Assembly (NCBI GenBank): GCA_016872355.1
Contig: VGZY01000023.1
Span: 1 to 39,245 of the forward strand
DNA length: 39,245 nt
Reading direction: 5' to 3'
From: SAR202 cluster bacterium
GTDB lineage: Bacteria; Chloroflexota; Dehalococcoidia; Lucifugimonadales; VGZY01
Positions within the stretch are counted from its first letter, which is position 1, and each line of letters opens with the position of its first letter. Shown here piece after piece: positions 1,104 to 13,544 of the stretch. A program made the translations under genes and the position numbers. The notes below the pieces were generated by a model that was not told the DNA's origin, searched no databases, and saw only the letters and a program-made list of their open reading frames with translations.

Positions 1104-2369
1104 CTACACGTAATTGCCCCTGTCCACTTCCTCTCCGGCAAGGAACACCTCCCGCACCTTGCTGAGGTCGCGAATGTCCTTCGAAGGGTCGCCGTCGACG
1201 ACGATCATGTCCGCCAGCTTGCCCGGCTTCAGCGTGCCCAGCCTGTCGTCTATCCAGCAGGAGCGCGCGGAGTCGCTCGTCGAGGCGACTATCGCCTCCA
1301 TCGGCGTCATCCCGGCGTCCACGTAGGAGTCCGGCTCGAGCTGGAAAGACCCCATCGGGTAGCTGGACCACGACGAGTCGGAGCCGGCCACCATGCGCAC
1401 ACCGGCCTGGCGCATCTTCGCGAAGTGCTCCTTCTTGATGTTGTGGTTCCGCCACCCCTCCTGCCGCTCCGCCTCCTGCGCCGGGGTGAGACGGCCCGCC
1501 GCCGCCTTCTCGTCCATTATCCAGAGCTTGTTGCGGCCCTGGTGCATCGTGGGGTTCACAAATACGCCCTGCCGTGCTATTCGCTCAGATATCTCAGGCC
1601 TGTACTTCCAGGCGCCGTCCGCCTCGCGGTGATACGCGTGGATGATCGTATCCACGCCGCCCTCGAGCGCGTTGACCATGCCCTGCGACGCCGCGCAGTG
1701 GGCCGCCACATGCTTGCCGAACTTGTGCGCCTCCTCCACAATCGCCCGGATCTCCTCCATGTTGAAAGAGGGCCGCGTTGGGAGCGACGTCCCCGTGCTC
1801 CCGCCCGTCGCCGTGATCTTGATAAAGTCGACTCCCTCCTTAACAAGCTGCCGCACCGCGGCGCGGCATTCGTCCACCCCAGTCGCCTCGGTGCCAAAGT
1901 AGCCCAGGTGCCCGCCGATGATCGCGATGGGCCTGCCGGCCAGCACCATGCGCGGCCCCACGGTGACGCCCATCTCCACCGCCTTGCGGAGCATCAGCGT
2001 CGTCTGGTTCTTCGCGCCGCAGTCGCGCACGGTCGTCACGCCGGAATAGAGGTGCACTCGCGCGTTCTTTGCCGATTGCAGGGTCAGCACCTCGTCGGAC
2101 AGCGTGTTGAGCTGGTCGCCCGTGCGTCCGTCGCCGAAGCCGTTCAGGTGCACGTGACAGTCGATGAGGCCGGAGACCACCGTCTTGTCCTCGAAGACGT
2201 GTTCCTCCACCTGCGCGCCATCGGGAGCGGTGACCGACTCCCACGTCCCCACGGCGCGCACCCTGTCGCCCTCCAGCAGCACCGCGCCGCGCTCCAGGGG
2301 CGGCGCGCCCGTACCGTCGATAAGCCGGGCGGCCTTGATGAGCTTGAAGGCGACGTTTCGTGTGGACAT
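1104..2369 (-). CDS. Amidohydrolase family protein, paralog 1 (imidazolonepropionase/prolidase-like)
   Basis: A 421-residue metal-dependent hydrolase of the amidohydrolase superfamily. All ligands of a binuclear centre are visible: His72-x-His74 in DCHVH, Lys184 in DFIKITATGG (probable carboxylated lysine), His224 in AAHC, His244 in IIHA, and Asp331 in AGSD. N- and C-terminal segments (about 8-65 and 385-421) form the small beta-sandwich typical of the family, ending in ADMIVVDGDPSKDI. The family hydrolyses amide or ester bonds in small cyclic or peptide-like compounds; the substrate here is unknown. There is no signal peptide, so it is cytoplasmic. AGGAG lies upstream of the ATG. It is divergent from lipoprotein 1 and collinear, ligand for ligand, with the paralog at 4151-5464. 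Confidence 0.9.
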   Translation of the reverse strand: MSTRNVAFKLIKAARLIDGTGAPPLERGAVLLEGDRVRAVGTWESVTAPDGAQVEEHVFEDKTVVSGLIDCHVHLNGFGDGRTGDQLNTLSDEVLTLQSAKNARVHLYSGVTTVRDCGAKNQTTLMLRKAVEMGVTVGPRMVLAGRPIAIIGGHLGYFGTEATGVDECRAAVRQLVKEGVDFIKITATGGSTGTSLPTRPSFNMEEIRAIVEEAHKFGKHVAAHCAASQGMVNALEGGVDTIIHAYHREADGAWKYRPEISERIARQGVFVNPTMHQGRNKLWIMDEKAAAGRLTPAQEAERQEGWRNHNIKKEHFAKMRQAGVRMVAGSDSSWSSYPMGSFQLEPDSYVDAGMTPMEAIVASTSDSARSCWIDDRLGTLKPGKLADMIVVDGDPSKDIRDLSKVREVFLAGEEVDRGNYV

Positions 2370-2459
2370 CCGGGGCTCCTGTGCAACGCGTAATTATGGG
2401 TAAGCATGATACCCATGCTGCGAATGGCCCGCAATCTCGTCTCCGGCAACACGGTGCCG

Positions 2460-2499
2460 TATAATACGCCCACACGACCACACGAGTTACGATATTCGT
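2460..2499. promoter_or_regulatory. Divergent promoter region with ACGA-TAT-TCGT dyad
   Basis: The 176-bp gap between the divergent amidohydrolase 1 and lipoprotein 1 holds TATAAT at 2460-2465 (which reads as a TATTAT-like -10 on the other strand) and the 11-bp dyad ACGA-TAT-TCGT at 2489-2499. The same TACGATATTCGT string occurs just before hisH. No convincing -35 is seen. Confidence 0.4.
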
Positions 2500-2545
2500 C
2501 GATACCGGTGTCAACAGGCCCAGTTTCTTTGTGGAGGCGCTCGTG

Positions 2546-3307
2546 ATGCTTCGCGATATCACCTCATTCCGAAGGATTGCCTCTCTTTTCGCACTCGCGG
2601 TCCTGGCCGCGACCGCCGTTGCTTGCGGCGCGCGCGAGGACCCATTCATCCAGAACCGCGGCCTGCCGACGCCCACTTCGCCACCCGTCGTCGGCGCCGT
2701 CAACACGCCGGGCGCGAACCAGCTCCTCGCAGAGTCTGTCGCTGTAGTGCGGCTAGCGCAGTGGAACGACAAGCGCGTCCAGTTCGAGAACGCCCTGGCC
2801 GGGTACATTATGGTCTGGGGTTACGACTACCGCGTCGATATCGTCAATGGGGAGCCCAACGACTACCAGGCGGGCCTTGCCGGCAACGTCGTGGACGTAG
2901 TGATGGAAGCGGACGAGAAGTGGGTCTCGGAAAACGGCGCGGCCGCGAAGGACCTGGGCCCCTTCTCCTCCGTGCAGAACGGCACCCGCATCGCCATGGT
3001 GTCCGGGATGGAGACCAGGTACGCGGACCGCGCCACGTTCCTTTCGAAGGTGTCCCCCAGCGAGGACAAGATCGTAGAAATCTCCGGCACTATCTCCGCC
3101 GGCCGCATCGGCATCAAGCCGGAGGTCGCCGCGATGGTTTACCTCAAGAACAACGAAGCCGAATGGACGCCGTGGGTGCCGGCCGAGATCGCCGGCAAGG
3201 TCAAGCAGGCGATGGCCGACGGCAAGACCAGCCTGGTGAACCGCATCTGCATTCCCAGCGGCGCGAACGGCGTGGGGACGGGCTCTGTTTCCAGCCTGTG
3301 TAACTAG
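2546..3307 (+). CDS. Lipoprotein, OpuAC-like substrate-binding protein, paralog 1
   Basis: A predicted 253-residue exported lipoprotein. Residues 1-26 form a lipoprotein signal peptide (basic RR at 9-10, hydrophobic core, AVAC lipobox with Cys27). A short Pro-rich linker (GLPTPTSPPVVG) leads to a domain with ANQLLAESVAVVRLAQW, then WGYDYRVDIVNGEPNDYQ, DVVMEADEKWV and a late AAMVYLKNNEAEWTPW helix. This order recalls glycine-betaine-type binding proteins (OpuAC), where an xxYQxLxxGxVDVxME stretch and a C-terminal AAxxWLKEN helix occur. The family call is tentative. ATG 2546 is preferred because GGAGG at 2533-2537 precedes it by 8 bases; an in-frame GTG at 2531 lies before that site. No permease or ATPase gene is nearby. 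Lipoprotein 2 follows 70 bp later. Confidence 0.75.
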   Translation: MLRDITSFRRIASLFALAVLAATAVACGAREDPFIQNRGLPTPTSPPVVGAVNTPGANQLLAESVAVVRLAQWNDKRVQFENALAGYIMVWGYDYRVDIVNGEPNDYQAGLAGNVVDVVMEADEKWVSENGAAAKDLGPFSSVQNGTRIAMVSGMETRYADRATFLSKVSPSEDKIVEISGTISAGRIGIKPEVAAMVYLKNNEAEWTPWVPAEIAGKVKQAMADGKTSLVNRICIPSGANGVGTGSVSSLCN

Positions 3308-13022: not shown

Positions 13023-13109
13023 GTCTGATCGGCCCAATTGAAAAAGAGGGTGCGCAGGCTATTGACATGCTTAATTATTCATGTAAGCCTATACAGGTGT
13101 CTGTGAGAT

Positions 13110-13155
13110 GAGTCAGTGGTATTAGTCTGCCTTGAGTATCATGGCCCATTGACTC
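13110..13155 (+). other. Structured leader of the microgene
   Basis: GAGTCAGTGG at 13110-13119 can pair with CCATTGACTC at 13146-13155 over 10 bp, including one G-U pair, leaving a 26-base loop. TTGACA stands at 13062-13067, but no -10 at proper spacing is clear (TATACA at 13090-13095 is 22 bases away). The hairpin ends 15 bp before the Shine-Dalgarno of the 29-codon frame. Confidence 0.4.
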
Positions 13156-13185
13156 CAGATGTAAGAATCTAAAGGAGGATAGGCC

Positions 13186-13275
13186 TTGATTACGATCGAG
13201 CTTGGTCACAAGCAGCCCGCCGCGAAGCCCGCTGCAAAGCCCGGTTCCGGCAAGCCCGCCAAGCCCGCCAAGTAA
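13186..13275 (+). CDS. 29-residue Lys/Pro/Ala-rich microprotein
   Basis: A short frame starting with TTG, directly preceded by AAAGGAGG (13171-13178) at the ideal 7-base spacing. It encodes a peptide beginning MITIELGHKQ and continuing as a basic tail of repeated KPA/AKP units ending PAKPAK, with 7 Lys in 29 residues. A strong bidirectional terminator follows 27 bp after the stop. The tail resembles the basic disordered C-termini of histone H1-like or HU-type nucleoid proteins, so nucleic-acid binding is one possibility; this is inference. It might be co-transcribed at the end of the his operon or from its own promoter. I recognise no family. Alternatives are a leader peptide or a remnant of a longer basic tail. 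Confidence 0.6.
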   Translation: MITIELGHKQPAAKPAAKPGSGKPAKPAK

Positions 13276-13301
13276 GGCGAGCCCCGGCTTAAGGCTGTAC
13301 A

Positions 13302-13341
13302 AAAACGAGAAGGACCCCAACGCTGGGGTCCTTCTCGTTTT
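13302..13341. terminator. Bidirectional rho-independent terminator
   Basis: AAAACGAGAAGGACCCCA pairs perfectly with its complement across an ACGC loop, giving a T-run on both strands. It ends the microgene/his transcript on the plus strand and the tRNA-Ser transcript on the minus strand. Confidence 0.9.
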
Positions 13342-13350
13342 GTTGCTACC

Positions 13351-13444
<94 letters not shown>

Positions 13445-13454
13445 AGGCGGGTGA

Positions 13455-13544
13455 TGGCGGAGAGAATGGGATTCGAACCCATGATGGAGTTGCCCCCATA
13501 CCAGTTTTCGAGACTGGCGCCTTCAACCGCTCGGCCATCTCTCC
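13455..13544 (-). tRNA. tRNA-Ser (CGA)
   Basis: The acceptor stem begins GGAGAGA and closes with TCTCTCC-like pairing (TTCTCTCC including G-T contacts). The anticodon stem CCAGT/ACTGG encloses the loop CTCGAAA, anticodon CGA. A long variable arm (ATGG/CCAT) identifies a class II serine tRNA. CCA is encoded. It is 10 bp upstream of tRNA-Ser(GGA) on the same strand, so both probably come from one transcript. Confidence 0.93.

Follow-up and report, generated by a model that had tools for sequence, protein, structure and literature searches.

A short frame on the forward strand of contig VGZY01000023.1 of a SAR202 cluster bacterium (13186-13275 of the window, i.e. the whole stretch of 39,245 nucleotides that was analysed) is very probably a real gene of a family of free-standing KP/KPA microproteins, whose members consist mainly of Lys, Pro, Ala and Gly. 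The fuller reading, in which the frame is translated into a free-standing H1-tail-like peptide that binds nucleic acid or the ribosome, stands at roughly even chances. The novelty lies in the free-standing microprotein form, its tandem arrays and its recurrence, the composition being already known from longer H1-like tails. Pfam and NCBIfam hold no model for the family members tested, and no description of such a family was found in the open-access literature searched.

The frame is preceded by a Shine-Dalgarno (SD) sequence, AAAGGAGG (13171-13178, forward strand), located 7 nt upstream of a TTG start codon (13186-13188), and runs for 29 codons to a TAA stop at 13275; both the well-spaced SD and the TTG frame had been proposed by an earlier sequence-only reading, and both are present at 13171-13275. 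The encoded peptide, MITIELGHKQPAAKPAAKPGSGKPAKPAK, has a net charge of +5 and contains 6 Lys (not 7, as had been counted), 5 Pro, 6 Ala and 4 KP dipeptides. It ends in PAK and includes AAKPAAKPG, a basic disordered segment of the KPAA type, as in the H1-like proteins of the AlgP/PhaF type, and its N-terminus, ITIELGH, is unusual for the family. Profile searches with the peptide in Pfam and NCBIfam gave no match, and a separate N-terminal domain is absent from the 29 codons. In general, the family is described by an SD of the form AAGGAG(G) at 4 to 13 nt upstream of the start, 12 to 40 codons mainly for K, P, A and G, KP dipeptides, a C-terminal K or R, and a terminator. The window frame has this SD spacing, a free-standing length of 12-40 codons, the basic C-terminus and a terminator near the stop, and stands at 82% on composition, below the stricter 85% cut. 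A microORF definition to which the window frame conforms (SD, start within 4 to 12 nt, at most 45 codons, at least 20% K/R, at least 15% P, at least 80% residues of the low-complexity set, and three KP) gave 0 matches in 30 Mb of first-order Markov sequence built from the window. Judged by these features, the window's own copy is presumably translated.

The same genome carries at least two further KP microprotein genes, each encoding 35 aa: MAHHEKPAAKPAGGKAAPAAKPSAPAAKPAAPKKK on contig 65, with a TTGACA-17-TAAGAT promoter, an SD and a terminator, and MAVPPKPASAAPGKSAAPAKPAAPSKPSAAPAKKK on contig 14, with an SD and a terminator. All three copies have TATTGACA upstream and TGTAAG further on, and the two paralogs carry TATTGACA...TGTAAGAT. 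A loose SD-KP pattern is not specific in this genome (138 versus 103 in the control, among the matches listed), and a pattern with a Lys-stop end revealed no further clear copy in it. Contig 21 of this genome (L257, 389-574, reverse strand) encodes a 61-aa YjzC-like protein (PF14168) that begins with KPG. Proteins of this type are likewise short, SD-driven and start with the KPG motif, but they have a conserved SG-Y-VGPRGG core, which the KP microproteins lack.

A protein search with the 29 residues, proposed earlier as a check of conservation, recovers only the window copy itself across 197 related genomes, because low complexity defeats such a search; family members were found by nucleotide and pattern searches instead. 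The first relatives were short nucleotide matches which, upon inspection, turned out to be complete units of SD, ATG, KPA frame and stop, usually followed by a terminator, and the pattern searches looked for an SD followed by two KP(A/G) codon pairs. Free-standing KP/KPA microproteins of 13 to 36 aa with an SD (for example, the peptide MAKQPSKPAPKKK) are found in at least seven other families of the window's order (G013, G024 with two in tandem, G026, G029 with three in tandem, G050, G073, G083 with two tandem copies of identical peptides, and G151), elsewhere in the Dehalococcoidia (G611 and G636), and sporadically in five other bacterial groups. Among 250 genomes of the order, about 9 have clear members by a strict pattern, which overlooks variants such as the window's copy; the distribution is patchy. 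One further Chloroflexi MAG (L203) has a single KP microprotein; in one set scanned, the genomes from other classes of this phylum yielded no clear case. Of 112 stretches retrieved from 84,980 species genomes in one scan, most are longer H1-like or unrelated proteins; the free-standing peptides among them belong to Clostridia, Bryobacterales (Acidobacteria), Zixibacteria, Tenericutes and Bacillota, and for most of these a promoter, a terminator-like hairpin or the two together can be recognised. Low-complexity peptides can arise repeatedly, so that a shared ancestry across phyla is not established. Nearly all relatives have AAGGAG(G) close upstream of the start, with AAAGGGGG in the first G024 copy, and the family's genes are arranged in three ways: with a promoter of their own, singly at the end of an operon, or in tandem arrays of two or three. 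A separate family of free-standing, H1-like proteins of 38 to 71 aa, starting with MFEFEPRA(L)KPGAKPAA, occurs in Burkholderiales and relatives (L123, L155, L223, L140, L159, L166 and L171).

Direct evidence, read from substitution patterns, indicates that such peptides are translated and kept under purifying selection as proteins in two other lineages, the genera g30 and g127, the window's genome being the sole one of its family in the set compared. Three genomes of g30 keep an unnamed gene followed by three tandem 13-aa frames, of which one copy is a variant with 14 aa. Between any two alignable copies there are 0 to 5 synonymous and no nonsynonymous differences, and at least 7 different synonymous changes occur in the whole set; of random changes, about 20% would be synonymous. 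Around the frames, the upstream protein is 56-71% identical and the spacers diverge; the SD is retained, and so is the terminator stem, both strands of which carry changes. Two genomes, G086 and G074, were counted as one, their cassette DNA being nearly identical. The gene directly upstream of this cassette is 66% identical between the two (L263 and L264), which suggests recombination or fast divergence of the upstream gene; the cassette is also carried by G029 (L262). Between the two copies of G083 there are 3 synonymous changes and no nonsynonymous one. In g127, a monocistronic member is kept in three genomes, together with a TTGACA...TAyAAT promoter, AAAAGGAGGTGA and a terminator; the two full-length forms have pS 0.49 versus pN 0.09, with 13 of 18 differences at third positions, and the orthologues show a 21-nt in-frame indel. 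The paralogs, the relatives, the synonymous-only divergence and the common unit architecture thus lend good support to the earlier proposal of a small protein gene overlooked for its length.

The 24 peptides collected, not all of which are independent, have 13 to 36 residues, of which K makes up 28%, P 25% and A 23%, with no aromatic residue, only one PP, almost no Arg and a net charge of +5 to +10. All 24 end in Lys or Arg, and this basic C-terminus looks like a real constraint, because the searches did not require it. Peptides of this kind are expected to be wholly disordered, and the strong SD and terminator carried by most members suggest an abundant product.

In the leader of the window unit, a promoter-like sequence that had escaped the sequence-only reading, TATTGACA-N14-TGTAAGCC (13060-13089, forward strand), can be read from the sequence and has similar counterparts upstream of the two paralogs. 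Its –35 hexamer, TTGACA (13062-13067), equals the consensus, and 16 nt further on lies TAAGCC (13084-13089), preceded by TG (13082-13083); with this weak –10 match, it is only tentatively taken as the promoter part of the unit. Downstream, the leader hairpin (13110-13155, forward strand), described before as a 10-bp structure, does exist as an inverted repeat, with 9 of 10 positions paired around a 26-nt loop, and has a z of –2.6 when folded alone. In the full leader, by contrast, it is not the minimum (–24.5 kcal/mol when forced versus –25.3 kcal/mol; leader z –1.05), and a rival fold of nearly equal energy pairs the SD with ACTCC. This ACTCC lies in the 3' arm of the hairpin and can pair either within it or with the SD (13146-13178), a possible switch. 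No comparable hairpin was noted in other family members, with the exception of G026, so that the hairpin is probably not a shared or essential part of the unit; being disfavoured in the full-leader fold and no common family feature, it was rejected as a regulatory element.

Downstream of the frame, an 18-bp perfect inverted repeat (13302-13341), an intrinsic terminator, is common to the microprotein gene and to two tRNA-Ser genes on the reverse strand (13351-13444 and 13455-13544) that converge on it. Its arms (13302-13319 and 13324-13341) are paired at 18 of 18 positions, with –32.6 kcal/mol and a z of about –10, and it ends in TTTTG on the forward and in TTTTTG on the reverse strand. Judged by the T tract, it suits the tRNA-Ser side at least as well as the microprotein gene. 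The earlier description of a perfect terminator therefore holds as to the pairing but not as to its assignment to the small gene alone: placed between convergent units and serving the tRNA-Ser genes at least equally, it is not independent evidence for that gene. A scan of the window at the Rfam gathering level found two tRNAs and nothing else. Upstream of the microprotein gene lies hisIE (PRA-CH and PRA-PH domains), and synteny with hisIE or tRNA-Ser, which had been proposed as a check, is not seen for the KP microproteins of relatives. In one Bacillota stretch (L189), a KP microprotein gene (850-924) lies near hisIE and hisF (1704-3052) in convergent orientation, a proximity that is probably a coincidence.

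Other family members have different partners. In three families, a gene for a CxxCxxCC protein (PF03692) immediately precedes the KP microproteins (L049, 182-745; L050, 9345-9902; L084, 6633-7190), but a fourth genome, G049, has the protein without a microprotein, so that a general linkage was rejected. The same outcome was reached for a second protein, partner B, which is without match in Pfam and NCBIfam and is linked to KP microproteins in g30 and G024, but has other homologues without a KP microprotein. Such variable partners, with no single pathway, fit a general rather than a pathway-bound role. Related, divergently oriented MarR-like winged-helix genes are found beside the G029 KP operon (L045, 8893-9204) and beside the G026 gene (L046, 5899-6237), and this type of regulator seemingly also adjoins partner B homologues in L265 and L268.

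Several other explanations have to be weighed. The window's own frame may be a chance ORF, its leader and terminator being parts of a small RNA or of the tRNA-Ser genes, as could be argued from the TTG start, the atypical N-terminus, the weak –10, the terminator common to the convergent tRNA genes, and the lack of a close relative with which the window copy could be compared. The empty Markov null and the two paralogs of like design in the same genome speak against it, and we consider it unlikely. Just as unlikely is a cis-acting micro-ORF, in which translating a short frame with a strong SD close to the 3' end would protect the mRNA or adjust termination, the peptide being a by-product. Many members do lie at operon ends right before the terminator, some of them in tandem, and Lys and Pro codons, which can slow ribosomes, might contribute; however, the conservation of amino acids far exceeds what translation alone requires, and in some members, monocistronic and with a promoter of their own, there is no upstream gene to protect. 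The alternative of a leader peptide, already raised in the sequence-only reading, would make the short frame followed by a terminator an attenuator that senses Lys or Pro codons and controls a downstream gene. This is extremely improbable, since the next gene is convergent, or an opposite-strand tRNA, for the window frame, both paralogs, G029, G013 and G024, the downstream genes are unrelated between members, and relatives conserve the peptide at the protein level. Attenuation is refuted for the members just named. A co-directional gene after the terminator, which an attenuator needs, is found neither for the window frame nor for the two paralogs.

Two further alternatives accept the peptide as the product but give it another target. 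The regular spacing of Pro and Lys and the positive charge would suit a ribosome-targeting or antimicrobial-type peptide that acts on the ribosomes of its own cell or on others. Known Pro-rich host-defence peptides use aromatic and Arg residues, whereas the family has no aromatic and almost no Arg residues, and no export signal or processing genes were noted; a peptide of this type is quite improbable. Binding to polyphosphate is suggested by AlgP, for whose KPAA tail it has been reported and whose KPAA repeats are required for polyphosphate granule spacing (PMC9239181). AlgP has this polyphosphate link, whereas PPK1 (PF02503) was detected in 0 of 16 carrier genomes, several of them incomplete, versus 7 of 14 named genomes of the control, in a search that covered PPK1 with PPK2 outside its scope, so that polyphosphate as the target is very improbable.

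Returning to a free-standing H1-tail-like binder of nucleic acid or ribosomes, the closest likeness is to known basic tails and peptides. The C-terminal KPAA tail of AlgP and PhaF of Pseudomonas, which is H1-like, is likewise made of Lys/Pro/Ala repeats, disordered and strongly basic. These tails, however, are long and belong to proteins that also have an N-terminal domain of their own (195 residues in AlgP), whereas the KP microproteins have 13-36 residues and no other domain. Bacterial histone H1-like proteins, e.g. those of Burkholderiales, share the K/A/P composition, and some of them are free-standing, but they mostly have 75 to 270 residues and are richer in KKA, the KP family being much shorter and richer in KP. 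Among short basic peptides, bTHX, bL36 and Sra are ribosomal or ribosome-associated; like the KP microproteins they are tiny, very basic and expected to be abundant, but their composition differs and no similarity is recognised by sequence.

DNA binding in vitro is reported for KPAA-repeat peptides, and the tail of AlgP has been likened to the H1 tail (PMC9239181); the disordered tail of PhaF also binds DNA (PMC3574117). Of the nucleic-acid-binding, H1-tail-like function suggested earlier, the resemblance of composition to these DNA-binding KPAA tails is thus borne out, and from composition we infer, as the best reading, that the peptide may bind a polyanion such as nucleic acid. In this mechanism, the window gene would give rise to a disordered peptide whose basic residues are spaced by Pro and Ala, similar to an H1 tail without a globular part. 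This peptide would bind nucleic acid electrostatically and with low specificity, and could either condense DNA or coat rRNA or mRNA.

It is possible, if somewhat doubtful, that these widespread unannotated tiny polycations are dedicated, abundant counter-ions for nucleic acid or ribosomes, i.e. free-standing equivalents of histone tails. If the reading is right, a recurrent gene family has been missed by standard annotation and can be recognised only by the architecture of its genes, as homology searches fail on peptides so short and repetitive. The tandem 13-aa copies are among the smallest protein genes with demonstrable amino-acid selection, and a free-standing histone-tail-like peptide would provide a minimal test case for the action of such a tail without a folded partner.
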